22,500 nt of DNA from positions 312,501 through 335,000 of the forward strand of contig JACVTC010000049.1 of the NCBI GenBank assembly GCA_016946835.1, given 5' to 3'. Of this stretch, positions 521 through 22,085 are shown piece after piece. The DNA comes from Neocallimastix lanati (nom. inval.). Taxonomy: Eukaryota; Neocallimastigomycota; Neocallimastigomycetes; Neocallimastigales; Neocallimastigaceae. Positions within the stretch are counted from its first letter, which is position 1, and every line of letters starts with the position of its first letter. The translations under genes and the position numbers were made by a program. The notes under the pieces are model-generated. The model ran no database searches and had not been told where the DNA came from. It worked only from the letters and a program-made list of their open reading frames with translations.

Positions 521-2719
521 TTACTTCATTTTTTTTTCTTCTTCCCTTTTTTCTTCCTTTTTTTCTTCTTCTTTATTATCTTCTTCTTTATTTTCTTTTT
601 TATTTTCTTCCTTTTTATTTTCTTCTTCTTTATTTTCTTCTTTATTTTCTTCTTTTTTATTTTCTTCTTCTTTATTTTCTTCTTTATTTTCTTCTTTTTT
701 ATTTTCTTCTTTATTTTCTTCTTTTTTATTTTCTTCTTTATTTTCTTCCTCTTTCTTTGGTATGATATAATGTAATGTTTTTTCTCTTTCAATAATTATT
801 CTTAGTGTATCTTTTTCTTCCGTTGAAAATGGTGTTGGCTCTTTTAAAGTTTTATTAAAATAAAAACATTCTAGATTATCGGTCCATTTTATATTTCTGT
901 CTTCCACATAATATCCTTCAAAATCAATGAATTTTAGATTATTAATTTTGCTTTTATCTCTAACTAAATGTCCATTCCAAAAATATAATTTATTGTGAAT
1001 GAGATGTCCAATATGTCCACAGAATTTATTTTTATAACATTTCCCGGTAAATGCCATCGGTGTTGGGTTTAAATTATAATGCATTCGTGCCATATCAAAT
1101 CCAATCCAAAAGGTTTCCTTATCCCCATGAACTTTCTTATACACCACTTCGGAACGAATCCTTTTTTCATTCAATTTACAGGCCGCTAATAATCCTGTGA
1201 GTGTTTTAATTTTATGAATCACTACAGTACTTGATTCCATTTCATGAATTGTCTGCTTGTTATAAAATCTTAACTTGGAGGTCTCAAACAGCGGATCGGA
1301 CATCCATGACTTCATCCATCTTATTTGGTTATTGGGTCCAGGAAAGAGTGAGCGATCTTTAAAGAAGAGGGTTCCCACCTTAAGATACCCTTCCTCTTCA
1401 AAAAGATCTTCAGGATTATGAAGGTAAACCACGTCGGCATCCATTAAAATAACCTCTTCAAAACGTGAGGCTAAGATGGCAAATGGTTTAATGGCCCAAC
1501 CTTCAATATCAACAATAGTATTATCAAAATAGGTTGTAATGTCCGATAGATAGACATTTTCATATCCGCTAAGAATGTTGCGATTTTCCAGAGAGAGATC
1601 ATTATTTCCAGCATAGAATACTTCGATTGGCAGTGTACAGTTGATGACATTACGGAGGGCATCAATGGTACTTCTTGCATACCTGAAATGCTTTTCTCCC
1701 GTACAGATAACTATTCCTTTCCCATTAAACGATTCTATCATTTTTTGAAAGGAATGGTATCGATGACCGTACAACCAAGGATACAGATCTTGATGTAATG
1801 TCGCTAACATTTTTTTATTCCCTGAGATATTCTTTTTGAAGTGTTTCTGTGACATAAATGAGGATTCCTGCAGTAGTCCATTTTTATATTTGGATATTCC
1901 ATTTTTAAATTTTAGTATGTCTTCTCGTTCAAATACAGAATCCCATAGTGCGGAGTGCAATTCTATTTGATTTCGTAATTCAATAAAATAGTCTAAACTT
2001 GTAATAATTTTTTTATCATCATTTTGTTGTTGTTGAAGTCCTTCCTTATTATTATTATTATCATCATTATTATTTTTCTGAACTTCAGTATTGTCATTTT
2101 GTTTTTCTTTGTTATCATTTTGTTGAACTTCCGTACTATCATTTTGTTGTTGTACTTCAGTATTGGTGTTTTGTTGAACTTCAGTATTATCATTTTGTTG
2201 TTGTACTTCAGTATTATCATTTTGTTGTTGTACTTCAGTATTATCATTTTGTTGTTGTACTTCAGTATTGGTGTTTTGTTGTACTTCAGTATTATCATTT
2301 TGTTGAACTTCAGTATTGGCGTTTTGTTGAACTTCAGTATTATCATTTTGATTCTCTTTGTTATCATTTTGCTGAACTTCATCATTATTATTTTGATGTA
2401 CTTCATTATTATTAATATTAATATTATTATTATATTTTAATGTTTCATTATCAACATTTTGCTCTAATGTTTCATTATTATCATTTTGTTCTAATGTTTC
2501 ATTATTTATATTTTGCTGTAATGCTTCACTAACATTTTGTTGTAACACTTCATTATTAATATTTTGTTGGTCATTTTTATTAATATGATTTTCAGATAAT
2601 TGATGTATAATTTTATTATAATGAGCCCTTTGAAATGTGAATATTGCAATAAATGAACATAATAGTATTAGAAATGGTATTATCAAAATAATTGCTCTTC
2701 TCCTTTTAAATATTTTCAT
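521..2719 (-). CDS. GT71 (Mnn1-type) alpha-1,3-mannosyltransferase-like, type II Golgi membrane protein
   Basis: This is an intronless 732-residue protein. Residues 1-8 are basic (KRRR), then a hydrophobic anchor spans about 9-29, giving the type II topology of Golgi glycosyltransferases. Residues about 46-234 are an Asn/Gln/Glu-rich linker with tandem NDNTEVQQ-like repeats. The catalytic region is about 335-630. It contains GIVICTGEKHFRYA, the pattern EVFYAGNNDL, a WAIKPFAIL segment, the metal/nucleotide-sugar binding DXD motif in LMDADVVYLHNPEDLF (DAD at 427-429) and a late KETFWIGFDMA segment. These are family hallmarks of Mnn1/GT71 mannosyltransferases, which use GDP-mannose to extend N- or O-linked glycans in the Golgi lumen. 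Residues about 655-732 form a Lys/Glu/Asn repeat tail that the family normally lacks. The first ATG was chosen because it begins the basic-hydrophobic anchor. The sugar specificity is inferred from family only. Confidence 0.88.
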   Translation of the reverse strand: MKIFKRRRAIILIIPFLILLCSFIAIFTFQRAHYNKIIHQLSENHINKNDQQNINNEVLQQNVSEALQQNINNETLEQNDNNETLEQNVDNETLKYNNNININNNEVHQNNNDEVQQNDNKENQNDNTEVQQNANTEVQQNDNTEVQQNTNTEVQQQNDNTEVQQQNDNTEVQQQNDNTEVQQNTNTEVQQQNDSTEVQQNDNKEKQNDNTEVQKNNNDDNNNNKEGLQQQQNDDKKIITSLDYFIELRNQIELHSALWDSVFEREDILKFKNGISKYKNGLLQESSFMSQKHFKKNISGNKKMLATLHQDLYPWLYGHRYHSFQKMIESFNGKGIVICTGEKHFRYARSTIDALRNVINCTLPIEVFYAGNNDLSLENRNILSGYENVYLSDITTYFDNTIVDIEGWAIKPFAILASRFEEVILMDADVVYLHNPEDLFEEEGYLKVGTLFFKDRSLFPGPNNQIRWMKSWMSDPLFETSKLRFYNKQTIHEMESSTVVIHKIKTLTGLLAACKLNEKRIRSEVVYKKVHGDKETFWIGFDMARMHYNLNPTPMAFTGKCYKNKFCGHIGHLIHNKLYFWNGHLVRDKSKINNLKFIDFEGYYVEDRNIKWTDNLECFYFNKTLKEPTPFSTEEKDTLRIIIEREKTLHYIIPKKEEENKEENKKEENKEENKKEENKEENKEEENKKEENKEENKEEENKKEENKKENKEEDNKEEEKKEEKREEEKKMK
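524..757 (-). repeat. Coding repeat: Lys/Glu/Asn tail of the GT71 protein
   Basis: This encodes residues about 655-732, a run of KKEENKEEN-type units ending in KKEEKREEEKKMK. The coding strand is almost pure purine and the plus strand almost pure pyrimidine over about 230 bp. The tail is highly charged and would lie in the Golgi lumen after the catalytic domain. No fold is predicted by eye. Confidence 0.85.
2018..2584 (-). repeat. Coding minisatellite: Asn/Gln-rich linker of the GT71 protein
   Basis: This covers residues about 46-234 of the glycosyltransferase. The core (about 2075-2383) is built from 24- to 27-bp units encoding NDNTEVQQ or NTNTEVQQQ variants. The flanking parts carry looser units such as NNETLEQN. 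It separates the membrane anchor from the catalytic domain, so it probably acts as a flexible stalk. The near-identical units suggest slippage or unequal crossover, so copy number probably varies between alleles. Long open frames seen in the other frames here are by-products of the repeat. Confidence 0.85.
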
Positions 2720-2998
2720 TGTATAAAAGAAATAATTTAAATAGGATAGGATTATTTTTAATTATTACTTTATTAGGTATATATTAATATATTAAAAAAT
2801 TTATAGATTAATGATTAAAAAAAAAAAAAAAAAAAAAGATTATTGTTTATATATAAAATGGTATTCAATTAGGTTTAAATTTTATTTTATTAATTTTATT
2901 TATTTACTCTAATATATATTAAATATATATATATAATATATATATGTATTTTTTTTACTTTTTAAAATAAAATATTATTTTAAAAAAAAAGAATTAAG
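2720..2998. other. Upstream region of the GT71 gene
   Basis: This is AT-rich DNA on the 5' side of the minus-strand gene, with a poly(A) run at about 2817-2837 and TA-rich stretches near 2920-2946. The GT71 promoter should lie here, but no specific factor site can be named. No open frame of interest was seen. Confidence 0.5.
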
Positions 2999-5459: not shown

Positions 5460-6220
5460 AATTTTGTAGCCTTTATTTGTTTTAATTACATTAATTCCTA
5501 TGATTTAGTTTGCTGTTTTATCTGTGGAGACTTTATATTTATGTTTTATCTTTGAAACAACATTGATAGTTTCTTTATTCTCTCCTGCAATTAATATATC
5601 ATCAACATAGAGTGTTAGTAATAAGCATAATTTATTATTTTTATATTTACCAAATAAATAACTATCTGTATTATATTGAATTAATCCAAATTTCCTTAAG
5701 AAAAACCTAGAGATTTTCGTAAAACCATTGTCTTCCAGCTTGTTTGAGTCCATAGTGAGCCTTTTGTAATAATCCTGATTTTCCGCAATTGTAGTTTTTA
5801 TCACCCATTGGAATTTGAACATAAATTTTCTTATCTAGATTAGCATTCAAATATACAAGCTTTAATATCGATTTGTCTTAAATTCCTATTTATATATTAA
5901 TGCAATAGTAATTGTTAATCTAAAAACTCTCCATTTCTATTGTAGAAGAATAGGTGCAAGTATAATCAACTCCTCCTTTAAATTGTCGAAAACTTTTTGA
6001 TGACTAATCATGCTTTGTATATACCATTATCCTTAATAGTAAAAAAAAAAAAAACTCATTTAACATCGAGTGGTTTAATTCCTTCTGAGAATATTTTTGT
6101 TTTCCACAATTTTCATAAACATTATTTCTATATAAATTTTCGTAATTCTTTGTTAATTGCATCTTTCCATTTGTCCACATTTTCTGAAGTCATAGATTCT
6201 TCATGATTTTTTGGAAATAA
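4709..6220 (-). pseudogene. Copia RVT_2 reverse transcriptase and RNase H, broken
   Basis: Reading the minus strand through several frames gives the RT start (ESMTSENVDKWKDAINKEL, IKDNGIYKA, GGVDYTCTYSSTI), then SYLFGKYKNN and the catalytic LYVDDILIAGENKE (YVDD at 5598-5609). RNase H follows, with TKTRPDIAFAVNQAARF near 5205-5265 and ALSTSEAEHSSLMKCTKQT near 5000-5080. The RNase H end (near 4730-4830) reads VTLIGSNSVMVDPLNQ. A segment around the central GDE motif of RNase H is deleted. The largest intact piece, 5505-5822, holds the palm region only. Stops and shifts make it non-functional. Confidence 0.85.
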
Positions 6221-6560
6221 ATGTATTAATATATTATTAACTCTATTTCTCTTGCGTCTTTCGTTTTTTATCAGAATCAGTTTTTCCTCTCTCTCTCAAA
6301 AAAAAAAAAAAAATTGGTTTATTTAATGTAGATATTCTATCTTTTATTTTTCTTTCTTCATTCGATTTATAAATTTTTCCTTTTTTCTCTTTTTCGATAG
6401 TTTTTTTTTTTTGCTTTTTCATTATCAATTTTTACAATTTTTGTTTATTTGTTTATGGTAAAATTTTATTTTTCCTTTTTTAATATTAGATTTAATATTT
6501 TTTTCTTTGGTTTTTCTTTATTTTCTTTTATCTAATAGTTTCCAGATCACTAAAACTGTC
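6221..6560 (-). pseudogene. Charged linker upstream of copia RT, broken
   Basis: The minus strand reads SNEERKIKDRISTLNKP, a Phe run, then GKTDSDKKRK. The same segment in copia copy 2 (about 20150-20340) reads ERQNTYIK/ERKMKDR-like residues followed by SDENESRKRNRINNNNILI. In copia polyproteins this is the low-complexity stretch between integrase and RT. Integrase itself is missing. Confidence 0.6.
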
Positions 6561-7735
6561 CTCAGATTCATTTTTTTTTTTTTTTTTTTTTTTTTTTTGA
6601 ATTATAGTCATTAATTTTAATATTTTCATATATTTTATTTTTTTTTTCCAAATTTAATTTTTCATTTCATCTTCATATTAACTATATTTTTTTAGGATTA
6701 CTTTCAATTCTATTGTTCAATAAGTTTCTAGTTTTTGCAATTTCATAAATCTTTTATAATTATTAAAGATTTGAAATTTTTTATTTCAAATTTTTATTAA
6801 TTAAAACCTTTTTTTTTACATTTTTTCATTTTTTGTTCAAAAAATCATTTTTTTTGTGATTTTTATATCCTTTATGTTTGTTTATCGTTATTTCTATTAA
6901 TAATACCATTTATTTTCATTACTCTTACTCTTATCATGTAGGGTTTTGGCAAGGTTTTTCATCTGTTGTATTTTTTATTTTTTTCTTTAATAGTTGAATT
7001 TTTGAGTATTTCCTCTTGATTTCCAGCTAATTTTTGATTTTCATTAATATAATTTGATCTTCATGTTGATATACTTTTTGCTTTTCTTGATTATGGTGCT
7101 TAGTTTTGTTATGTCTTCTTTTAAATCTTTAAATGTCTTTTCAACATATAGAAGTGTGAATGAATACGTCATACCGACTTTATTTAATTCCTCTAAAGAA
7201 TATAAAACTTTTGTTTCTTCACTTAGTTCTGGTTTATTTTGTAATTTTGCCTCGTTATTGTATTCTCTAAATAATGAGTTAAGATTATCTAAATACCGCT
7301 TAACATTATCGTTTTCGATTTCTAGCTTCTTTATCTTCATTTCAATTTCGAATAGTCTGGATGGGCCTGTTTCTGAAAATCTTTCTTTTAATTAATTTAC
7401 CACTAAATATGCACTTGTGCAATTATTTAATAAACTTTTTGTATATTCATTGAGGCTGTTCAGTATTATAATCCCGACGGTACTGGTCATATTAAATAAA
7501 TGTTTTTTCATTGGTGTTTATATCTTTAATATTCTTTAATATATAATCACCTAATTCTTCAGAAGCGAGGAATAATTTTAAGTCTGAATACCATTTGTGA
7601 AAGTTTCTTTTGTAATTTTTAAAGTTTTTGAATATAAAATTTATTATGTGTATTTGTTTGAATATTTGGAGGTTCCATTTCAACAAGAGAGTATCATTCA
7701 TTGTTATACTTGATGTATTTGTTGTCTTTGACTGT

Positions 7736-11119: not shown

Positions 11120-12152
11120 ATGAATATTTATGAAATATAAAATATGCTTAAAAATAAATTGAATTCTATTATAATAATATTATATATTGTTTATATTATT
11201 ATTTATTGTTATATTTAATTTTTTATTATAAAATTGGAAAATTAAAAAAAAAAAAGAATTTATTTTATTTTTAATAAAAATTAATTATTAATTTTTAAAC
11301 CCAATAATATAAGTATAAATATAAATGTTTTTATAATATTATTTTTTTTTTATCTTTTTTTATTATGTATATATTTTATTTTTTAGATTCAAAAATATTC
11401 TTTTTATACTTTTATTTTATTATATTATTATTAAATACATAAATACTATTGGTTATTAATTAATATAGGTTATATTTTCTTATAAATATTTTTTTTAAAT
11501 TTGTTTCTTTTTTAAATAATATTCTTTTTAATTTGTTTCTTTCTGGCATAAATAACCTTTATTTTATTTTTTTTTTTGTGTGTGTTCCACATTAAATTAA
11601 TAATATTTTTTTTATTATTTTAATTCTTAAAAATTTTCTTTGAATTCTTTAAACAATATTATTGGTAATCATTAGATTACTATATAGTGATAATCCATAA
11701 AACATTGTATACATTTTTTAAAGAAAAAACTCAAAAAAATAATGAAATGACAGCATATTAAATAAATATATATATTATTACATAATTCTAAATTTAATTT
11801 TAAAATAAAATAATTAAAAATAAAAAAATTTTTAAAGAAATAAATATTTTAAAATTATTTAAAATTATTAACAATAATATTAATAATAATATAACTCAAA
11901 TTTAAATTTAGAGCGTTACAGCATTTTTAAAAAATGTTTAATAATTTATTTAGGTATTCAAGCTCATATATATATATGGACAAGAAAACTTTTAAAATTA
12001 ATGTATTGGTTGATTAAAAAATAAAAAAAAAATATTACATTTTAGTCTATTTATTGTTTATTAGTTTAAAAAACTATTAATGTCTTTTGAAACAAAATAT
12101 TATTGAATTAAAAAATAAGGGAAAAAAAATATGCTTTATATATATTAATAAA

Positions 12153-12154
<2 letters not shown>

Positions 12155-12196
<42 letters not shown>
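12155..12196 (+). promoter_or_regulatory. 42-base oligo(dA) tract upstream of the receptor gene
   Basis: This is an unbroken run of 42 A on the coding strand, ending 32 bp before the receptor ATG. Rigid poly(dA:dT) tracts exclude nucleosomes in fungal promoters, so a promoter role is plausible. In this genome such tracts also occur in introns and transposons, so position alone is weak evidence. Confidence 0.4.
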
Positions 12197-12198
<2 letters not shown>

Positions 12199-12228
12199 TT
12201 TTATTATTGGAATAATTATTATTAAATA

Positions 12229-12817
12229 ATGAAATATAAAAATTCATTCATATGTTTTTACATAATATCTCTCATTATTTTTATAAAAGTCAAAATATGT
12301 AAATGCCAATATAATAATAATTATGAAAACGAGAAGTTTTTACTCAAGCTTTATGATCTAGATGATTCATTAATAACAGAATTAAATTTACATTATAGTT
12401 ATACATCCTATCTTTTTAATGAATACTATTATTTATATCAATTGTATGTAATTTATATATATATAAATTTTTTAAATTATTTAAAATAAATATTTATATG
12501 AAATTATTAAGTTCAAATTATTGCTTTTGTTCTTATATTAAAAAAAAAATTAAATAAATAAAAATGAAACAAACAAACAAAATAAAATAAAATAAAATAA
12601 AATAAAAAAAAAGATCAAATATAAAGTATGCAATAATATGTAGTGAAGAAGATAATGATTTAGATGAAAGTGAAATAGAGACATTTGTATTCTGGAATGT
12701 AGCATCATATTCTATATTTTTATCATCATCTATTTTTTTAAATGTTTTTCCATTATGGTATAATGAACAAAAAAAAAATAACAAACATTTTTGCATGAGA
12801 ATTGATTCTGTCGGATG

Positions 12818-12862
<45 letters not shown>

Positions 12863-15329
12863 TAAAAGTATATTACATAAGAATATATTAAAGGATATAA
12901 TAATTAATAGAATTAAAATAAAAGGTATGATAATGCATATGCTTCAATATGCGATGACGAACATAAATATCCATGTCCAGATTTAATAATACTTGGTGTA
13001 ACACAGGTAAAGAAAAAAAGTACTCTTATTTTATATTTAATTATTATATATAATAATTATTTTATGATATATTATGAATTAAACTATTTATTATATAATA
13101 TATATTTTATATATATGCATTTTCTTTATATATGCAAATTACTATATATATATAAATTACTATATATATATATATTTATGACTAATTATTAAAAAAAAAA
13201 GTTAACTCATAGATATTATAATGATGAAATAATTGATTTAAATAAATACTTCAGAAATTATTTTAAAAAAAATGGAAGGCCATTGGAAAGTTTATTAAAT
13301 AAATATTCATTTTATGATTGTGAGTTATATAATGCATTCATAAAAAATTTATGTATATAGTTTTTATTAACATTTTAATTAAAAAAAAAAAAAAATAGAT
13401 AATATTGATAATAATTGGCTGGCTGTCCCAGTAATGTTAGATTTTCGAGTATTAAAATTTAATATTACAACGTTTGATTATTGTATAAGTCAAGGATATA
13501 ATCTTAAATATCCTCCGGTAGTTATAAAAAAAATATAGTATAATTGTTTTATTTATCATTTATTTTATTAATATATATATATATTTAAATATATTTTAAA
13601 TCTTTAGCCTATAAATGATAATTGGTAAATTTATAATTACAATGAAAAACTCCATTATGAAAAATATTAATTTATATTTAAAATTTTAAATAATTATTTA
13701 TAAGGGGGAAAAATTATAGAGATACTGTAATTAATAATAGTAATAATGATGATAATACTTAATTATGATATATAAAATATTAACAATAATAATAATTATA
13801 TATTATTTTATCATTTAGTGGAATTGGGAAAAAGTTTTTGAATATGCAAAAATGATTACTGAATGTACAAAGAATCCAGGATTTAAACTTTTAACTAACT
13901 ATTATGAAGGTTTTTTATTTTAATATATCAAAATAGTTATTAAATATAGAAATTTACAAATATTATCATTTTTATTAAATTTATTTTATCATTTTTATTA
14001 TATTTTATAAAATTTTAATATGCTTTATTTTATTATATATATTTTATTATATTTTATTATATTTTATTATATTTTATTATGTTTTTTTTTTATTATATAT
14101 ATATATTTTTATTTATTTCCATAGATATGAATTTTTTTATAAATATATGCCAAACACTAAATATTCCTTTTTTTACTGAAAACTCAGAATTAAATACTAA
14201 AAAATGTGGATTACGAAATCCAGAATACATTATGAAACTGTCGACTCTAAGAAGCGTATTTGAAAATCATTATGTAAATATAATATATATATATATATAT
14301 TATTTTATAAGTATTGTTACCATTACTAAATTAAAATATGATTAAATAATAACTTGATTTTTTTTTGATATATAAAATAGATTGAAAATTGGTTTAATGA
14401 AACTATAATAGAAACATGGCTAAATTCAGATTATCCTAAATCTATTGATAATCTTCCAAAAATTGAATATAATGATACATTAATCTTTGATGAAAGCCTT
14501 ATAAATGGGTTATACTATACAAATTTATTTTCAATGGTAATTTTTTTTTTAAAATTATTTTTTTCATTTTTTATTTTTTATTTTTTATTTTTTTTTAATT
14601 TTTAATATATCAAAAATATCAATATTTTATTATTAAAAAATTAAATTCATAGAATGAATACCCTGATATAAAATTATCGGTAATATCAATATAGAATCTA
14701 TTTAAAATCATTATTAAACTATATTAATATATAATTATTAATAATAAATATAACTATTAATAAAAATAAATAAATAAAATAGTATTATCCAGGAACTTCA
14801 ACAAGTAATTTTTGAACATATTATATATATATTTGTTGTTTCATTAGATATTTTTAATTAATAATAATTACATAATTAAATATAATATATTAACTATAAT
14901 GGTAAAAATATTATGAAAATAAATATAGTATTTGGGTCAGGTATAATAAAAAAAATTATTTAAAAATGTAATTTTATATTTATAGTTGAAATAGTAATTA
15001 AACTTATTTCATTTTATATTAATTATTCAAAAAAGGTTTTGTAATTACAAAAAAATCTAAATATCCTGATCAGGCTTTTGAATTTATAGAAATATTCATT
15101 GATGAAAAGTATCCTTTTTTTACTGAAGCAAACATTTCTGTTACTGTAAATATATATTAGTTAATGATAATTTAGAAAATAATATATAAAGAAATAAAAT
15201 AAAGTAAAAATAAAAAATATTATAATCAATTGATTAATTAGTATTATTACTATTATAATTGTAATTATTATTATTATTATATTATTATTATTTCATAAAT
15301 AAGCCATTTGATGATAGAAATGGAAAGCA
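12229..15329 (+). other. Receptor exons 1-15: signal peptide and solute-binding-like ectodomain
   Basis: Exon 1 gives a hydrophobic leader ending near KICKCQ. The binding-protein-like core follows. Recognisable blocks are KYAIICSEED (exon 2), PCPDLIILGVTQ (exon 3), NNWLAVPVMLDFRVLKFN (exon 5), PPPINDNWGKNYRDTWNWEK joined from exons 5-8, SMNEYPDIKLSYYPGTST (exons 10-12) and FVITKKSKYPDQAFEFIEIF (exon 14). Order and spacing follow family 1/8-type extracellular solute-binding proteins: lobe I strand, hinge near LAVPV, WxW helix, and the late residues where sugar-binding proteins say that extra residues count as helper helices. Very short exons 6, 7, 11, 12, 13 and 15 supply loops between conserved blocks. 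Family identity is from memory of fold patterns, not from a search. Confidence 0.7.
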
Positions 15330-16140
15330 GTATTTATTAAGCATAATTATTTATATAATTATATATATATTTTCTATTAATTATATATATAAAATATATA
15401 ATGTATATTATTGTTTTTTAATATTATTAATTATTTTGCTTTTATTTTTAAACTCATATTTTAAGATGCCAATTAAATAAAATAAATAAAAAGACAAAAT
15501 GTAATTCTTTATTGGAATTAGATGGAATCTATCCATATTATTATAATATTAACAATATTACAGAAATAGTATATTTGAAACATATATCAAGTAAATCGGA
15601 TAGAGGAATATCAATAATTAATAATAATACTCTATATCCTTTAAAATCAAAAATTTTTCATAATATTCAAAATATTAATTTTACATGTGATAATGAAGTA
15701 AGTTATGAAAAAAAAACGATAACCTATAAGGATGAATATAGGATTGAAATACCAATTAATAGCAAGGAAAATTTATTGTTAAAATCAATGACAGATGTTA
15801 TATATATTAATCAAGCTGATAAAACAAAATGTGAAATATATGATGAAACATCTAAATATGCAAAACCATTACCAGTATATATATTAAATCATTAATATTA
15901 TTAATATTATCAAATATAATAAAATTAATAATTTTAAATATAATTATATAATAATATAATATAATTTTTTTTTTTTTTTTTTTTTGATATTTTTTCAATA
16001 AAATAAAAATTATAAAAAAATAATACAATAAAATAAATAAATAAATACACACATATATATAATAACAGTTTCCTTATACAAATTTGTAAGTATTTGAAAA
16101 AAATTATTTTATACAATTCATAAATAATATATATTTAATG

Positions 16141-16189
<49 letters not shown>

Positions 16190-17605
16190 TTTTTTTAATT
16201 TTTTTTTATTAATCATTATTACTCTATAACAAATAAATTAAAAGTATGGAATTTAAGAATCTAGAGTTAAGATCACCAGTATCACTTTTATTTTCACATT
16301 TGTATTATAATTATTATAAAACGTATAAAAAAGAAGAAGCAACATTTGAAGATTTGATAGATGAATTTTGTGATATTGTTGATGATTCTTTAATTCCATA
16401 TTGTAAAGATACAAAGATTTTACATTATTCTTTAACTGAATGTAATATTAGAACTCTAAAAATGAATATTAATTATTTGAATTGTAAAACAGAAAAAAAT
16501 GATGGTATTCCAAGGTTAATAACATGCCCTTATTTGCCAAATAAAAATTATTTAGGATTTACAATACGATTATTTGGAATAATATTTTTAATTATAGAAG
16601 TACTACTTTTATTATTTCCAATAATGTAAAACAATAGTTTATAAATATATATATATATAAATTATTATGTGCATATTGTTTTTTATATTTTAATATTAAT
16701 ATATAAATATTTATTAATTAATATACATAACCACTTTATTAACTCTGTTGATTTATAATTTATAATTAATAATTTATAAAATTACCTATTATAATAATTA
16801 TTAGTTATCGAAAAGAAAGATGTATTTATATAGCAGGAATAAACTTTTTAATAATTACAATTATATTTTGTATATTAATAAATATGTCAATATTTTATTG
16901 GATTGGTGAATTTAAAACACATAAATGTATATTAAAAGTATGGACGATGATTCTTGGGGTAAATAAAAATTCTTATAAATGTACTATAAAAAAAAAAAAT
17001 AAAACTCATAATAAATATATATATTATTTATATTTATATGACATTTTATAAATTTTTTTTTATTATAAAAAAAAAAAAAAAAGATAACTGGGTACATAAG
17101 TTCATACTCTGTTAAATCAAAAATAATTATTTCAGTTTATAATAATAAAAAACTGAAAAGTAATAGTAATAAGCAATCTATATTTATTACTTATGGAATT
17201 GTTTTTTTAATTCAAATAATTTTATTAACAATATGGACATTAACACATAAAGGTGTACAAAAAGAAAATGTATATTATCAAATTATTGGATATATTGAAT
17301 TAAATAAATGTTCAACAGGAAATAAAAGAATATTTTATTTAATATTTATAATAGATTATATTTTATTAGCAATTTCTATTGTAATTTCTTATCAAGGAAG
17401 AAAAAGTATGATATATATTTTTTTATATATTATTAATTATATAAATAATAAATTCTTTTTTCAAAAATTAAATATTATAATTTTTAATTTATTAATTTAT
17501 TTTAAAAAATATTATTATTAAAGTACCTGATGAATTTAATGATGTAAGAAAAAAATTTTTTATATTTATTATTATTAATATTATTATTATTATTATTTTT
17601 TATTT

Positions 17606-17639
<34 letters not shown>

Positions 17640-18060
17640 CTAAATAATATAATTAATATTATATATCAATTTTTATTTTAATATTATATTATAGTCAAGA
17701 AAAATATATATTTCATCCTTAATATCTATTTTTCAAGTAATTATATAAAAATATTTATTTCTAATGTAATAAAATTATCTACTAACGTATTTTTTAATTT
17801 TATTTTATTTTATTCTTAATAATTATTAATATATTAATATATTAATATTAATAATAATTATATATAAGTTGACGCTATGTAATCTTGTTGCTCAATATAA
17901 TATTGAAAATTTAATTCTTTATGCTGTTATGTTATTACTAATAATGTTAATATCATTAATTAATACAATCGTTTTTATCATGCCAAAAATGTTCATAATA
18001 TTTAATTTCAATGTAACAGAATCTTCAATAAGAGTTATTAACAACTCAACTTCAGAATAA
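12229..18060 (+). CDS. Class C GPCR-like receptor with solute-binding-protein-like ectodomain (23 exons, 968 aa)
   Basis: Exons: 12229-12443, 12614-12817, 12925-13006, 13202-13319, 13399-13517, 13608-13624, 13705-13726, 13819-13909, 14125-14273, 14381-14536, 14653-14679, 14783-14804, 14929-14940, 15036-15145, 15304-15329, 15466-15874, 16069-16085, 16245-16625, 16805-16958, 17084-17405, 17524-17543, 17695-17736, 17869-18060. All 22 introns are GT-AG (79-215 bp), phases agree throughout, and no internal stop remains. The protein has a signal peptide (1-27), a periplasmic-binding-like ectodomain (about 35-450), a Cys-containing juxtamembrane region (about 457-700) and seven helices (702-945). 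The class C motif IPDEFND precedes TM6, and Cys767/Cys853 fit the TM3-ECL2 disulfide. It probably senses an extracellular solute such as a sugar at the plasma membrane. The ligand is unknown. Exon 4 has an alternative in-frame donor at 13353. Confidence 0.85.
15466..16625 (+). other. Receptor exons 16-18: juxtamembrane region and TM1
   Basis: Exon 16 starts CQLNKINKKTKCNS and is joined in phase to exon 15. It carries several Cys and N-glycosylation-type sites (NNIT, INFT). The 17-nt exon 17 contributes FPYTNF, bridging PLP of exon 16 to MEFKNLELRSPVSLL of exon 18. Exon 18 adds four further Cys and ends in TM1 (about residues 702-725, TIRLFGIIFLIIEVLLLLFP). The ATG at 16246 is internal, not a start. 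The upstream AAAAG acceptor and phase require the join. Confidence 0.75.
16805..18060 (+). other. Receptor exons 19-23: TM2-TM7 of a 7TM_3 domain
   Basis: Exon 19 encodes TM2 (about 733-757) and the extracellular start of TM3 with Cys767. Exon 20 encodes TM3, an intracellular YNNKKLK loop, TM4 (about 810-830), Cys853 and TM5 (about 859-880). The 20-nt exon 21 encodes IPDEFND, matching the conserved LPxxFNE motif before TM6 in class C receptors such as metabotropic glutamate receptors. Exons 22-23 give TM6 and TM7 with FIMPKMFIIF, like the class C FxPK at the end of TM7. The short C-tail ends NNSTSE. Confidence 0.85.
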
Positions 18061-18126
18061 AATGAAATATTAATAATAACAATAATAATAATTCAAATAA
18101 TTAAAAAATGATATTAGTAAATTAAT

Positions 18127-18396
18127 TGATAAATATCGTAGCTATATGTTAATTACATTATACATTAAATTACATTATAATGTTAAAAATATTTCTATTT
18201 GATAGTATCATACAGTGTAACATAAAATGTTACAAATAACGTATGAGTATTATAGAAAAAACTATTATATAAAAATCATGTAATGACATATTCTTAAATG
18301 AATAGGTCTTTCTTAATGTAAAAGCAATAAAATAAATAAAATAAATACATAATAAAATATAAATATCATTTCTGATTTTAAGTGTTATATTTAACA
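18127..18396 (+). repeat. 5' LTR of copia copy 2
   Basis: This 270-bp LTR begins TGATAAATATCG and ends AGTGTTATATTTAACA. Read in the opposite sense, its end matches the LTR at 4464-4694 (AAATATAACACTTAAAATC, AGAAAGACC, ATTTAAGAATATGTC). Its start aligns with the same LTR through GTTAATTACAT and CAGTGTAACAT. An extra block of about 40 bp explains the length difference. It starts 66 bp after the receptor stop codon. Confidence 0.78.
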
Positions 18397-18479: not shown

Positions 18480-19270
18480 TATATCAAAGAATTTTAAAGA
18501 TATAAACACCAATAAAAAAAACATTTAATATATGATAGTACCGTCAGAATTATAATATTGAACAACCTCGACAAATATACAAAAAGTCTATTAAATAAAA
18601 AGCACAATATTTAATAATTAATGAGTTAAAAGAAAGATTTTTAGAAACAGGATCATCCAAACTATTTGAAATAGATATGAAAATAAAGAAATAAGAAATT
18701 GAAAAGACTTTAAGCTGTATTTAGATAATCTTAACTTGTTATTTACAGAAATTAACAATGAGGCAAAATTACAAAACAAACCAGAACTAATTGAAGAAAC
18801 AAAAGTTTTATATTCTTTAGAGGAATTAAATAAAGTCGGAATTACATATTCATTCACATCTCAATATATTGAAAAGATATTTAAATATTTTAGAAGGCAT
18901 ATTAAAACTAAGTACCATTATCAAGAAAAGCAAAAGTATTAAAAGGGTCGATATTAAGGAAGAACTATATAAACACGAAAATCAAAATTGCAGAGTCCGA
19001 AATGGGAAATTTCCATATAATTTCAATAAAGAATCAAATTCCAACGAATACTACCACTAATGCCATAAAATCTTTGTACTACTGATAACTGTTTTTTCAA
19101 ATTCACCAAAGAATAACTATATAGGGGAGAGGAAAAAATAATAATAAATCAAATAAAAAAAAAAAAGAACATCTATAAGTAGAAAAGGTAGTAAAAGAAA
19201 CTTCAAATCATATAATGCTAATTATGAAGATGAAAACAATTTTGATTCAGATTCAGATCCATCATTCGAC
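18480..19270 (+). pseudogene. Copia gag remnant, copy 2
   Basis: The sequence starts at the block encoding KDINTN, which lies in mid-gag of copy 1, so about the first 110 residues are missing. The best stretch (18740-18890) reads INNEAKLQNKPELIEETK then SLEELNKVGITYSFTSQYIEK, nearly identical to copy 1. Frame breaks occur near 18650-18740 and after 18900. The acidic tail near 19215-19270 reads NYEDENNFDSDSDPSFD. Confidence 0.78.
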
Positions 19271-19389
19271 TTCTGCTTCAATATAACAAAACTAAAATTA
19301 TCAAAGATAATTATAATAACAATCCAATAACTCCTAGGGACATAAAGGTAAATAAAATAAAGGTCGAAATCTTAAAAGAAAAAAATAAT

Positions 19390-19690
19390 GATAAAGAAGA
19401 TAACAACAAAGACTCATGGATCATTGATATTGGAATATGAATTAACTTAACCAAAAATATAAAAATACTATCAAACATTGAAGAAGTTTCTAATAGAGGG
19501 ATTATATACCAAAATAGACAATCCAATAGAATTTACAAAAAGGGTATACATGAAGGACTACATAAAAATAATAATTCTTCTATTGGAGAAGCGCTTTATG
19601 CTCCAAATATACAATATAATTTAATTTCCACTTATTTCCTATGAAAAAAAGGGGCTTTAAATTAGTAATGAAAATGTACAGTAATAAAGA
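19390..19690 (+). pseudogene. Copia protease and following linker, broken
   Basis: Positions 19407-19470 read KDSWIIDIGI, a stop, then INLTKNIKILSN. This matches the copia aspartic protease start, where the family has WIIDSGAS. The catalytic Asp is present but the Ser-Gly neighbour is changed to Ile-Gly. Positions 19590-19640 read EALYAPNIQYNLISTYFL, the conserved VLYAPN-NLIS segment that precedes the pre-integrase domain. Stops follow. Confidence 0.75.
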
Positions 19691-19814
19691 AAAATTCCAA
19701 ATATATATAAAAATAAATTAAATACTACCATCTATATAAGAATAGTGAAAACCTTTTTTTTTTTAAATACATTCCCAACAAAAGATATAGTTTATAATAT
19801 AAATAATATTGATC

Positions 19815-19905
19815 AAAATTTATGAAAAACTAGATTAGATCATTATTAACAATCAAAATCTTCATAAATTTTTAGAAAGCAACAACATTAAGGAAAAAAA
19901 AAAAG
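19815..19905 (+). pseudogene. GAG_pre-integrase fragment
   Basis: After RLDH a one-base shift leads to NNQNLHKFLESNNIKEKKK. The copia pre-integrase domain has the form LxHxNxxNLxKFL. The sequence then runs into low-complexity DNA with no integrase DDE motifs. Confidence 0.5.
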
Positions 19906-20149
19906 AATAATGATATAAATTACAAAAAAAAGTTCTGTTAATAAAATTTTGAATAAAAATTTAGAATTTTAAATTAAAGAATAAATTAAAAATTTCAACT
20001 TACAGTAATTATAAATGTTTATCTAAGTCAGATATGGAATCTTTAGATAGAAGAATAATTAAGGTAAAATAAAGAAAAGGATAAAAAATTTAATATTAAA
20101 TGAAATAATAATTTTATTATTCCATTTAATATTAAAAAAACAAGTAAAC

Positions 20150-20683
20150 AAAAATGACAAAATTGATAAAAAAAAACTATCGAAAAAGGAAAAGAAAAAA
20201 TTATCAACAGAATGAAGAAAGAAAAATGAAAGATAGAACACCTATATTAAATAAATTCCTTTTTTTTTGAGAGGAAAACAGATTCAGATGAAAATGAAAG
20301 CCGCAAGAGAAATAGAATTAATAATAATAATATATTAATTTAAAAAATTTTTTGAAGAATCCATGATTTTGGAAAATGACAACAAACGGAAAGATGAAAT
20401 AACCAAAGAATTACAAAATTTATAAATAATGTTATGAAAATTATGGAAAACAAAAATATTTTAAAAAAAGGCATTAAACTCCTTGGTGTTTAATTGGATT
20501 TTATTATTAAAGATAATTGTATTTATAAAGCAAGATTTGACGTCAGAAGTTTAATGCAGATGATTGTTTATTTGGTAAATATAAAAATAATAATTTATAC
20601 TCATTACAAGCACTTTATGTTAATGATATATATGTTCAAATATTAATTTCAGGGGAGAATAAAGAAATTACCAATGTTATTAA

Positions 20684-20717
<34 letters not shown>

Positions 20718-20969
20718 ATAAATACAAAGTTTCCACAGATAAAAGAACGAACGAAATCATTAAAACAAAAACATATATAATTAAAACAAATAAAGGCTAC
20801 AAATTAATCAAAAGGATTATATTAAAAAAATGTTAACTAACTATAATATAAACAATACAAAAATAACAAGAACACACTATAAATTAATATAAAATTAGAA
20901 GATAGGAAAAATTCTGAAAAAAATTAACAAAACTGATTATAAAAGATTGATTGAATATTATATGTATTA
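20150..20969 (+). pseudogene. Copia linker and reverse transcriptase, 5' part, broken
   Basis: The linker reads SDENESRKRNRINNNNILI near 20285-20340. RT begins with IKDNCIYKARFDVRS near 20505-20550, then jumps by internal deletion to DDCLFGKYKNNNLYSLQALYVNDIYV. The active-site YVDD is changed to YVND. A poly(A) run of over 30 bases (about 20684-20716) lies within the frame just before HKYKVSTDK. The sequence KTNKGYKL follows near 20780-20810. The frame is cut at 20969 by the nested LTR. Confidence 0.8.
20965..20969. repeat. Left target-site duplication of nested solo LTR
   Basis: This is TATTA, against TATCA at 21570-21574. Comparing with copy 1 (ATGTATCAACAAAAAC), removal of the LTR and one duplicate restores a matching uninterrupted site. 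Confidence 0.8.
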
Positions 20970-21569
20970 TGTAACGGTAGGGGTAGTCACGATAGGCTGG
21001 TATACACCGAGAGATAAAAATATGCTTTATTAAAAATAAGTTTTATTAACATTTAAAAATTAAAAAAATAATAATTAATTAATTAATCGATGTAATAATT
21101 TCAAATTACATATTAGTTAATTAATAATAGTACAAAAAAAATTTTTTTTTTTTTTTTTTTTTTCATTCGAAGAGTTCGTACTATTTATAATTTAGTCGGA
21201 AAAATAGTTTTAAAATGTATAAGTAATATTAATGAAATATTTAGAAAGATTTTAGTGATAATTAATAATATAAAGTTTCTAGAAATAGATTTTAATAGAT
21301 GAAAATGAATCTTTTAGAAAAAAGAATAAAATAATTTCGAAAATAAGAATTTCTAAATTCATTTAGGCTAAATTACAAACCGAAAGAATCATTAACTTTC
21401 TACAATTTTATACAGAAAGAATATTAAGATTGTTATTATTAGTAATAAAATAAATTTTTTTTTTCAAAATAGGTTGAAGTGCGAGTCAAATCCATGATGT
21501 TATAGTCATGGCCAAGGTAACTAAACATTAGCCATGGCTCTAACTTTACTAATGAAAGACTTCATTACA
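20970..21569 (-). mobile_element. Solo LTR, Ty3/gypsy type, nested in copia copy 2
   Basis: This 600-bp segment has TGTAACGG... at the left and ...TTCATTACA at the right, giving TGTAA/TTACA inverted ends. It is flanked by a 5-bp duplication TATTA/TATCA. Copia copy 1 has uninterrupted sequence at the equivalent point, so the insertion boundaries are exact. No internal coding region is present. The minus-strand reading of its right end (TGTAATGAAG..., GCCATGGCTAATG, TTACCTTGGCCATGAC) matches the sequence starting at 21785, which precedes a gypsy-like gag. That fixes the family and the minus orientation. Confidence 0.85.
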
Positions 21570-21784
21570 TATCATTAAAAACAAAACCTGATATAGCATT
21601 TGCTGTAAATCAAGCCGCAAGATTTCCGAGAATCCAATAGAACTTAATTTGAATGCTGATATTCAAATATTAAAATATCTTAATAATACAAAGGATTTTT
21701 CAATCCATTATAATAGGAAAGTTTTAATAGTTTATTGTGATGCTGATTTCTTTGGTGATGAAATTAGAAGAAGATCCACCTCAG
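21570..21784 (+). pseudogene. Copia RT/RNase H, 3' part, broken
   Basis: The sequence resumes after the nested LTR with TKPDIAFAVNQAARFPRI (from about 21589). After a frame change it reads YCDADFFGDEIRRRSTS (about 21734-21784), the copia RNase H motif around the catalytic Asp (family: YSDADWAGD...RKSTSG). The frame ends abruptly at the TG of the next LTR. Confidence 0.85.
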
Positions 21785-22085
21785 TGTAACGAAACTAAAA
21801 ATCTCAGAAATTAAAACCATAGTTTAGTAGTCAGTTACTTTGGCTATGACCTATGTTTCATATCGACTCCGATCTTGATTTAAATCAAGCCTCTGAACCA
21901 GGATTCTTTTCAGGAAAAACATCTGAAATCGAATAGTTTTGCCAATTCTGTGAAGATACTTTTAGGACTACCCCAAATAGATATTTATCAGAAGAAACAG
22001 AAATTAATTTTGTTAAATCTTATTTATTAGATTTAACGAGAAATTGGTATTAATCGACTCCTTCGCAAAAAGCTATGTTTTGATT
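21785..22085 (+). mobile_element. Ty3/gypsy-type LTR start joined to a gag fragment
   Basis: Positions 21785-21880 begin TGTAACGAAAC and align with the minus-strand start of the solo LTR (ACCATAGTTTAG, GTTACTTTGGCTATGACC). The rest of the LTR is absent. From about 21868 an open frame reads DLDLNQASEPGFFSGKTSEIE, a stop, then FCQFCEDTFRTTPNRY and EETEINFVKSYLLDLTRNWY, another stop, and STPSQKAM. This has the layout of a gypsy gag capsid domain (F-G start, ...TxxxRYxxEExKI.FxxSYL...W). It is an internally deleted copy inserted into the RNase H of copia copy 2. Confidence 0.65.

Follow-up and report, generated by a model that had tools for sequence, protein, structure and literature searches.

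Can a region of very low GC content, across which no single open reading frame runs, encode a complete cell-surface receptor? The question is raised by a 22,500-nucleotide stretch of contig JACVTC010000049.1 of the gut fungus Neocallimastix lanati (positions 312,501 to 335,000, hereafter the window). A sequence-only reading of it had joined 23 forward-strand exons into a receptor with a signal peptide, a bacterial-type binding-protein-like ectodomain, a stalk and the seven helices of a class C G protein-coupled receptor (GPCR). Taken as a whole, it is likely that this gene encodes a surface receptor that senses a gut solute through a solute-binding protein (SBP) ectodomain, a stalk and a G-alpha protein, and the parts of this reading are supported to different degrees.

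The joined exons (12229..18060, forward strand) give a frame of 968 residues with no internal stop, from a start at 12229 to a stop at 18060. All 22 introns have GT-AG borders and are 79-215 nt long, and the GC content of the exons (0.167-0.417) does not overlap that of the introns (0.033-0.127) in a region of ~12-17% local GC (1-kb windows). The open-frame list of the window contains no long single frame across the gene, as had been said, and an independent join followed by a check of one donor against relatives arrived at the same 23 exons and 968 residues. The relatives are 17 loci (L039-L055) from the same genome (199 Mb, 762 contigs), in which a protein search gave 59 matches (E ≤ 10), among them the exons of the window itself; family counts of 18 are these relatives plus the window gene. 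The donor GTGAGT (13320) was chosen for exon 4 because the same-genome relatives favour it, with all 14 covering relatives continuing without a gap at the end of the exon. The rejected donor, GTATAT at 13353, lengthens the protein to 979 residues, and that version aligned with a gap at this point in 11 of the 14 covering relatives and with short odd inserts in L040, L045, and L050. The 979-residue version was also used for the genome protein search, cysteine counts, opposite-strand control, hydropathy, and the search for ANF and NCD3G domains.

Relatives were compared with the window using a purpose-written, splice-aware protein-to-DNA aligner, which returns the window model when that model (979-residue version) is the query. 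The 968-residue protein aligns to the 17 loci with 40-60% identity, from the N-terminus in 14, without stops in 15, and with both properties in 12. Intron residue and phase are identical in 317 of 337 covered comparisons, and 16 further introns have the same phase and lie ≤3 residues away; the weakest is intron 10, exact in 4 of 15 relatives and ≤3 residues off in 10 more. In the reverse direction, with the 17 relatives as queries against positions 11901-18300, 330 of the 344 covered window junctions were recovered, and 9 of the 14 missed junctions come from a single query (L055, which recovers 12 of 21). Because the window model guided the reading of the relatives' proteins, the two comparisons depend partly on each other; the splice sites of each locus are independent. 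The relatives score 964-3102 on the forward strand of the window and 98-145 on its reverse strand, L041 reaches at most 136 on 60 first-order shuffles of the window DNA, and the window protein scores 965-3093 against the loci and 87-170 against their opposite strands. Matches of L041 to the window flanks (109-212, many short pieces, ~30% identity), for which a control of such length is lacking, were taken as noise. Of the extra introns listed for the relatives (979-residue version), nearly all lie within the 31 N-terminal or the 26 C-terminal residues, in which the family proteins diverge. Judged by homology and splice signals, on which the exon joins rest, the predicted gene model is real, far beyond chance.

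By sequence similarity, the C-terminus of the predicted receptor is a class C GPCR. The joined protein matches Pfam 7tm_3 well above its cut-off (91.7 bits, E 7.9e-26, cut-off 33.5; profile 6-250 of 251) from residue 701 onward, and a single window exon passes the same cut-off in a genome scan (35.2 bits). A profile of the stalk and helices, compared with solved structures, retrieves CaSR (2.2e-9), GABA-B2 (6e-7), GPR158 (6.1e-7), T1R2 (8e-6), and then mGlu3. Class C receptors carry the motif P..FN(E/D) in the third intracellular loop (ICL3). In the CaSR alignment the motif R.(I/L)P(D/E).FN(D/E) is matched, with IPDEFND (residues 885-891 of the 968-residue frame) opposite LPENFNE, and Cys767 and Cys853, located in the same frame, both stand opposite CaSR cysteines. 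This pair, between transmembrane helix (TM) 3 and the second extracellular loop, is kept in 18 of 18 family members. The class C assignment, made earlier from IPDEFND and the two cysteines, is thus borne out by the 7tm_3 and CaSR scores.

Hydropathy shows a signal-like stretch at the N-terminus, consistent with the proposed signal peptide, together with six clear helices and a weak hydrophobic stretch inside the ectodomain (residues 96-119). Of the seven helices claimed, the remaining one, TM3, lies under the hydropathy threshold of 1.3 and is placed by the full-length 7tm_3 alignment alone. Pfam hits listed up to E 10, a range in which HMMER filters drop most matches above 0.1, include neither the ANF (type I) ligand domain nor the nine-cysteine domain NCD3G. 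In the cysteine-containing stalk, nine cysteines, spanning 236 residues (458-693), are kept in 18 of 18 members. The SBP-like part has eight more conserved cysteines, six of them in 15/15 members, one in 14/15, and one in 13/15. The conserved ectodomain cysteines thus total 17 (signal-peptide cysteines excluded), and one may guess that this odd number would fit one intermolecular bond and a covalent dimer. The last five stalk cysteines have a like spacing, by eye, in L006 and L007, which blastp ties to the stalk and helices (L007 E 2.4e-14). A Pfam GFP match in the stalk (16.7 bits, cut-off 22) was dropped, as it was present in one of three members.

Together with its relatives, the window gene makes up a family of 18 or more genes in this genome that have introns and cysteines in common. 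Of 303 candidates in the genome scan with 7tm_3, 150 were scored and gave at least 131 matches, and the seven best matches each hold the domain in one stop-free open frame. In a tree of 28 seven-helix (7TM) stretches, the 18 intron-rich members form one clade (support 100/100) in which L040 adjoins the window gene (100/99), and long branches outside the clade leave the wider order unsure. The 22 introns may reflect either a gain within this clade or a loss from the remaining receptors. Three of the 18 members (L039, L051, and L055) have most SBP exons missing from the stretch fetched, and L053 and L054 have one stop each in the aligned frame. L039 (4140-6420 of its locus) lies on the same contig, ~10 kb past the end of the window receptor gene.

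For the ectodomain, the proposal of a bacterial-type binding-protein-like module is supported mainly through relatives. The nearest relative, L040, matches SBP_bac_1 with 33.1 bits (profile 50-304 of 307) and L048 with 27.2 bits, both above the cut-off of 26; L047 (25.8) and L052 (20.0) fall below it, and L041 matches SBP_bac_8 alone (23.3 bits, cut-off 27). Altogether, five of seven family ectodomains match SBP_bac_1 at E ≤ 1 and none matches NCBIfam. The sister receptor L056 (G000:C751:525300-527700) carries its SBP and its 7TM region in a single open frame, and its SBP matches the maltose-binding protein MalE3 (1.7e-19) and a trehalose/maltose-binding protein (TMBP; 2.1e-11), so that L056 offers a better entry than the window gene to a screen for ligands. 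In bacterial genomes, the sister SBP picked out 100 stretches by pattern, and tblastn showed no relative among them. The window ectodomain is supported as SBP_bac_1-like by similarity; the scores are mixed across the family, so that the case for a type II SBP comes more from the family to which the domain belongs than from the window sequence itself.

Several observations weigh against the proposed receptor. The SBP profile check, positive for L040 and L048, left the window protein under the cut-off (22.1 bits for the whole protein; 25.4 bits, E 1.7e-5, just short of it, for the ectodomain alone), and the L045 ectodomain has no Pfam match up to E 0.1. The window gene, whose exons are scored singly in a genome scan, was not among the matches to SBP_bac_1 (8) or SBP_bac_8 (7) in this genome. 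Searched up to E 10 with a profile of the seven ectodomains, the solved structures yielded no SBP; the fluorescent-protein and PIH1 matches of this profile (E 0.1 and worse) are ascribed to chance. Profile-profile comparison gave E 0.018 with two solved sugar SBPs, 0.043 with these plus L056 and L057, and 0.26 with L056 and L057, all at low probability, and controls against the four-sequence profile gave E 0.14 and 0.49, so that this comparison is too weak for support. Finally, the coding GC of the window gene is 0.219, compared with 0.245-0.295 in nine other class C frames.

If the gene functions as proposed, the receptor would be secreted to the surface of the cell and expose the SBP to the outside, where it would close on a small solute, most likely an oligosaccharide, that is freed in the rumen or gut. 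A sugar as ligand is an inference, as it was in the sequence-only reading. The rigid, disulphide-braced stalk would relay this closure to the helices, probably within a dimer, and the helices would activate one of the genome's G-alpha proteins, for which 51 exon-level matches were found (E ≤ 0.001). The paralogues may then form a panel of chemical sensors for the fungus, perhaps for its zoospores. With this gene model, and with the receptor placed in a large set of paralogues, the sensing of nutrients by gut fungi can be put to direct test.

The alternative that survives best is a loss of small-solute binding by the SBP-like domain, which would instead serve dimerization or adhesion, or would take a ligand other than a sugar. 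This is a serious but minority possibility, suggested by a divergence that brings the domain's own Pfam score below threshold and by its eight conserved cysteines, which bacterial sugar SBPs are not generally known to have. It is countered by dozens of invariant positions across the seven family ectodomains, many of them aromatics and prolines, and by the maltose-binding resemblance of L056.

A decayed or silent copy, readable but no longer working as a receptor, is improbable. The family does show birth and death, as seen in the single stops of L053 and L054 and the three members without most SBP exons, and the coding GC of the window gene is low. However, all 23 exons are open with GT-AG borders, the cysteines are conserved, and dN/dS against L040 is ~0.47 (dN 0.25, dS 0.53; simple counting, averaged over both branches). 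Coding GC across the family (window gene and L039-L055) is 0.197-0.260, mostly under that of the nine other class C frames, and is 0.283 in a mannosyltransferase frame of the window. Gut-fungal assemblies are 56-201 Mb in size with 16.3-21.2% GC and a coding GC of 26.2-29.1%, according to a table in PMC12341934.

Far less probable is a wrong join of two neighbours, a secreted solute-binding protein and a separate GPCR, even though SBP-like proteins that are not GPCRs are described for gut fungi (PMC5168858). Introns 14-17, which bridge the two parts, have exact counterparts in all relatives that cover them (16/16, 17/17, 17/17, and 17/17), and ectodomain and 7TM share one stop-free frame in 12 relatives, and likewise in L053 and L054 apart from one stop each. 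A chance exon chain, which a region of ~12-17% GC with its easily found short frames and GT-AG pairs might offer, is practically refuted by the relatives' scores against those of the controls (≤145) and by the recovered junctions.

Table 1. Exons of the proposed receptor gene in window coordinates. Spliced alignment: window protein against the 17 loci and/or the 17 relatives against the window.
Feature	Position	Strand	Basis
Whole gene, 23 exons, 968 aa	12229..18060	+	spliced alignment, both directions
Exon 1, signal-peptide-like hydrophobic N-terminus, ectodomain start	12229..12443	+	junction 1 in 14/14 relatives
Exon 2, ectodomain	12614..12817	+	spliced alignment, both directions
Exon 3, ectodomain	12925..13006	+	spliced alignment, both directions
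Exon 4, ectodomain, donor GTGAGT	13202..13319	+	junction 13319/13399 in 14/15 relatives
Exon 5, ectodomain, SBP-like part	13399..13517	+	spliced alignment, both directions
Exon 6, 17-nt microexon, ectodomain	13608..13624	+	spliced alignment, both directions
Exon 7, 22-nt microexon, ectodomain	13705..13726	+	spliced alignment, both directions
Exon 8, ectodomain, SBP-like part	13819..13909	+	spliced alignment, both directions
Exon 9, ectodomain	14125..14273	+	spliced alignment, both directions
Exon 10, ectodomain	14381..14536	+	spliced alignment, both directions
Exon 11, 27 nt, after intron 10 (position least fixed)	14653..14679	+	window protein against loci
Exon 12, 22-nt microexon, ectodomain	14783..14804	+	spliced alignment, both directions
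Exon 13, 12-nt microexon	14929..14940	+	9-15 nt in 15 measurable relatives
Exon 14, C-terminal part of SBP-like domain	15036..15145	+	spliced alignment, both directions
Exon 15, link from SBP-like domain to stalk	15304..15329	+	spliced alignment, both directions
Exon 16, stalk (Cys458, 469, 531, 579)	15466..15874	+	both junctions 17/17; Cys kept 18/18
Exon 17, 17-nt microexon, stalk	16069..16085	+	both junctions 17/17
Exon 18, membrane-proximal stalk (Cys641, 652, 665, 679, 693), most of TM1	16245..16625	+	relatives' junctions; 7tm_3 from residue 701
Exon 19, TM2, first part of TM3; Cys767 at 16926-16928	16805..16958	+	spliced alignment, 7tm_3
Exon 20, rest of TM3 to TM5; Cys853 at 17309-17311	17084..17405	+	relatives' junctions, 7tm_3
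Exon 21, 20-nt microexon with IPDEFND (third intracellular loop)	17524..17543	+	CaSR profile alignment, sequence
Exon 22, first part of TM6	17695..17736	+	spliced alignment, both directions
Exon 23, rest of TM6, TM7 (MPKMFIIF), short C-tail	17869..18060	+	spliced alignment, 7tm_3

The window also contains the mannosyltransferase frame (524-2761, reverse strand), whose 746 residues include a Mannosyl_trans3 domain (2.1e-41) as well as stretches of low complexity rich in Asn/Gln and in Lys/Glu. The receptor gene seems to be flanked on both sides by fragments of a copia-like retroelement in opposite orientation (5508-7391, reverse; 18703-21786, forward). The left-hand flank has a sub-threshold RVT_2 reverse transcriptase match at 5508-5834 (4e-6, 27.1 bits, cut-off 31.6), and the frames 7047-7391 (reverse) and 18703-18939 (forward) look alike by eye. 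No Pfam family matches the right-hand frames, a repeat search within each flank separately gave mainly poly-T/poly-A and no clear long-terminal-repeat pair, and Rfam has no match in the window. In a genome scan with CBM_10, the fungal dockerin module, all 150 scored candidates matched, and 1440 were found at first look; together with its 199 Mb, this gives the genome the character of an anaerobic gut fungus.

The fusion of an SBP with class C helices is an already known type, of which the window gene is a further member; here both domains lie in one reading frame of a gut fungus, with the SBP identified via relatives. The sequence-only reading was right that such fusions are known in anaerobic gut fungi, where passages of Seppala et al. 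(2016; PMC5168858) report 51 class C receptors in a Neocallimastix species and describe a long N-terminus and a sugar-type SBP II domain together with a class C 7TM, as in the window receptor. Up to 10 cysteines there fail to align with the nine-cysteine domain. That work, by contrast, is transcript-based; the word "intron" is absent from its main text, and neither the 23-exon subfamily nor the nine conserved stalk cysteines is in these passages. The added statement that the fusions are not typical of other fungi was too strong, as SBP_bac_1 is reported ahead of the 7TM of eight class C receptors of Allomyces macrogynus in passages of Krishnan et al. (2012; PMC3251606). This species differs in phylum (Blastocladiomycota), and the likeness is drawn at the level of domain descriptions.

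Less expected is the family itself, in which 18 or more genes have 22 introns in common and conserve nine stalk cysteines. On this intron-rich subfamily, gene structure included, nothing was found in the literature searched, which comprised few subscription journals and no supplements. For a receptor type that automated annotation could readily fragment, the window provides a gene model that has been checked.

Among bacterial proteins, MalE3 and TMBP resemble the sister receptor L056 in sequence and belong to the SBP_bac_1 group, which the window ectodomain also resembles; they are free or lipid-anchored proteins of ATP-binding cassette (ABC) transporters, not receptors. CaSR and other metazoan class C receptors share with the window receptor the 7TM sequence, the cysteine pair, the ICL3 motif, and perhaps the flytrap logic, but have an ANF (type I) domain in place of the SBP_bac_1-like domain. 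It can be suggested, though only tentatively, that the intron-rich genes are an undescribed clade of at least 18 receptors with a type II SBP, a nine-cysteine, disulphide-braced stalk, class C helices, 22 almost frozen introns, and a 9-15-nt microexon, a fungal and independently built counterpart of the animal receptor with its flytrap and cysteine-rich domain. The window receptor would also mark a second, fungal route from a bacterial-style binding protein to a class C receptor.

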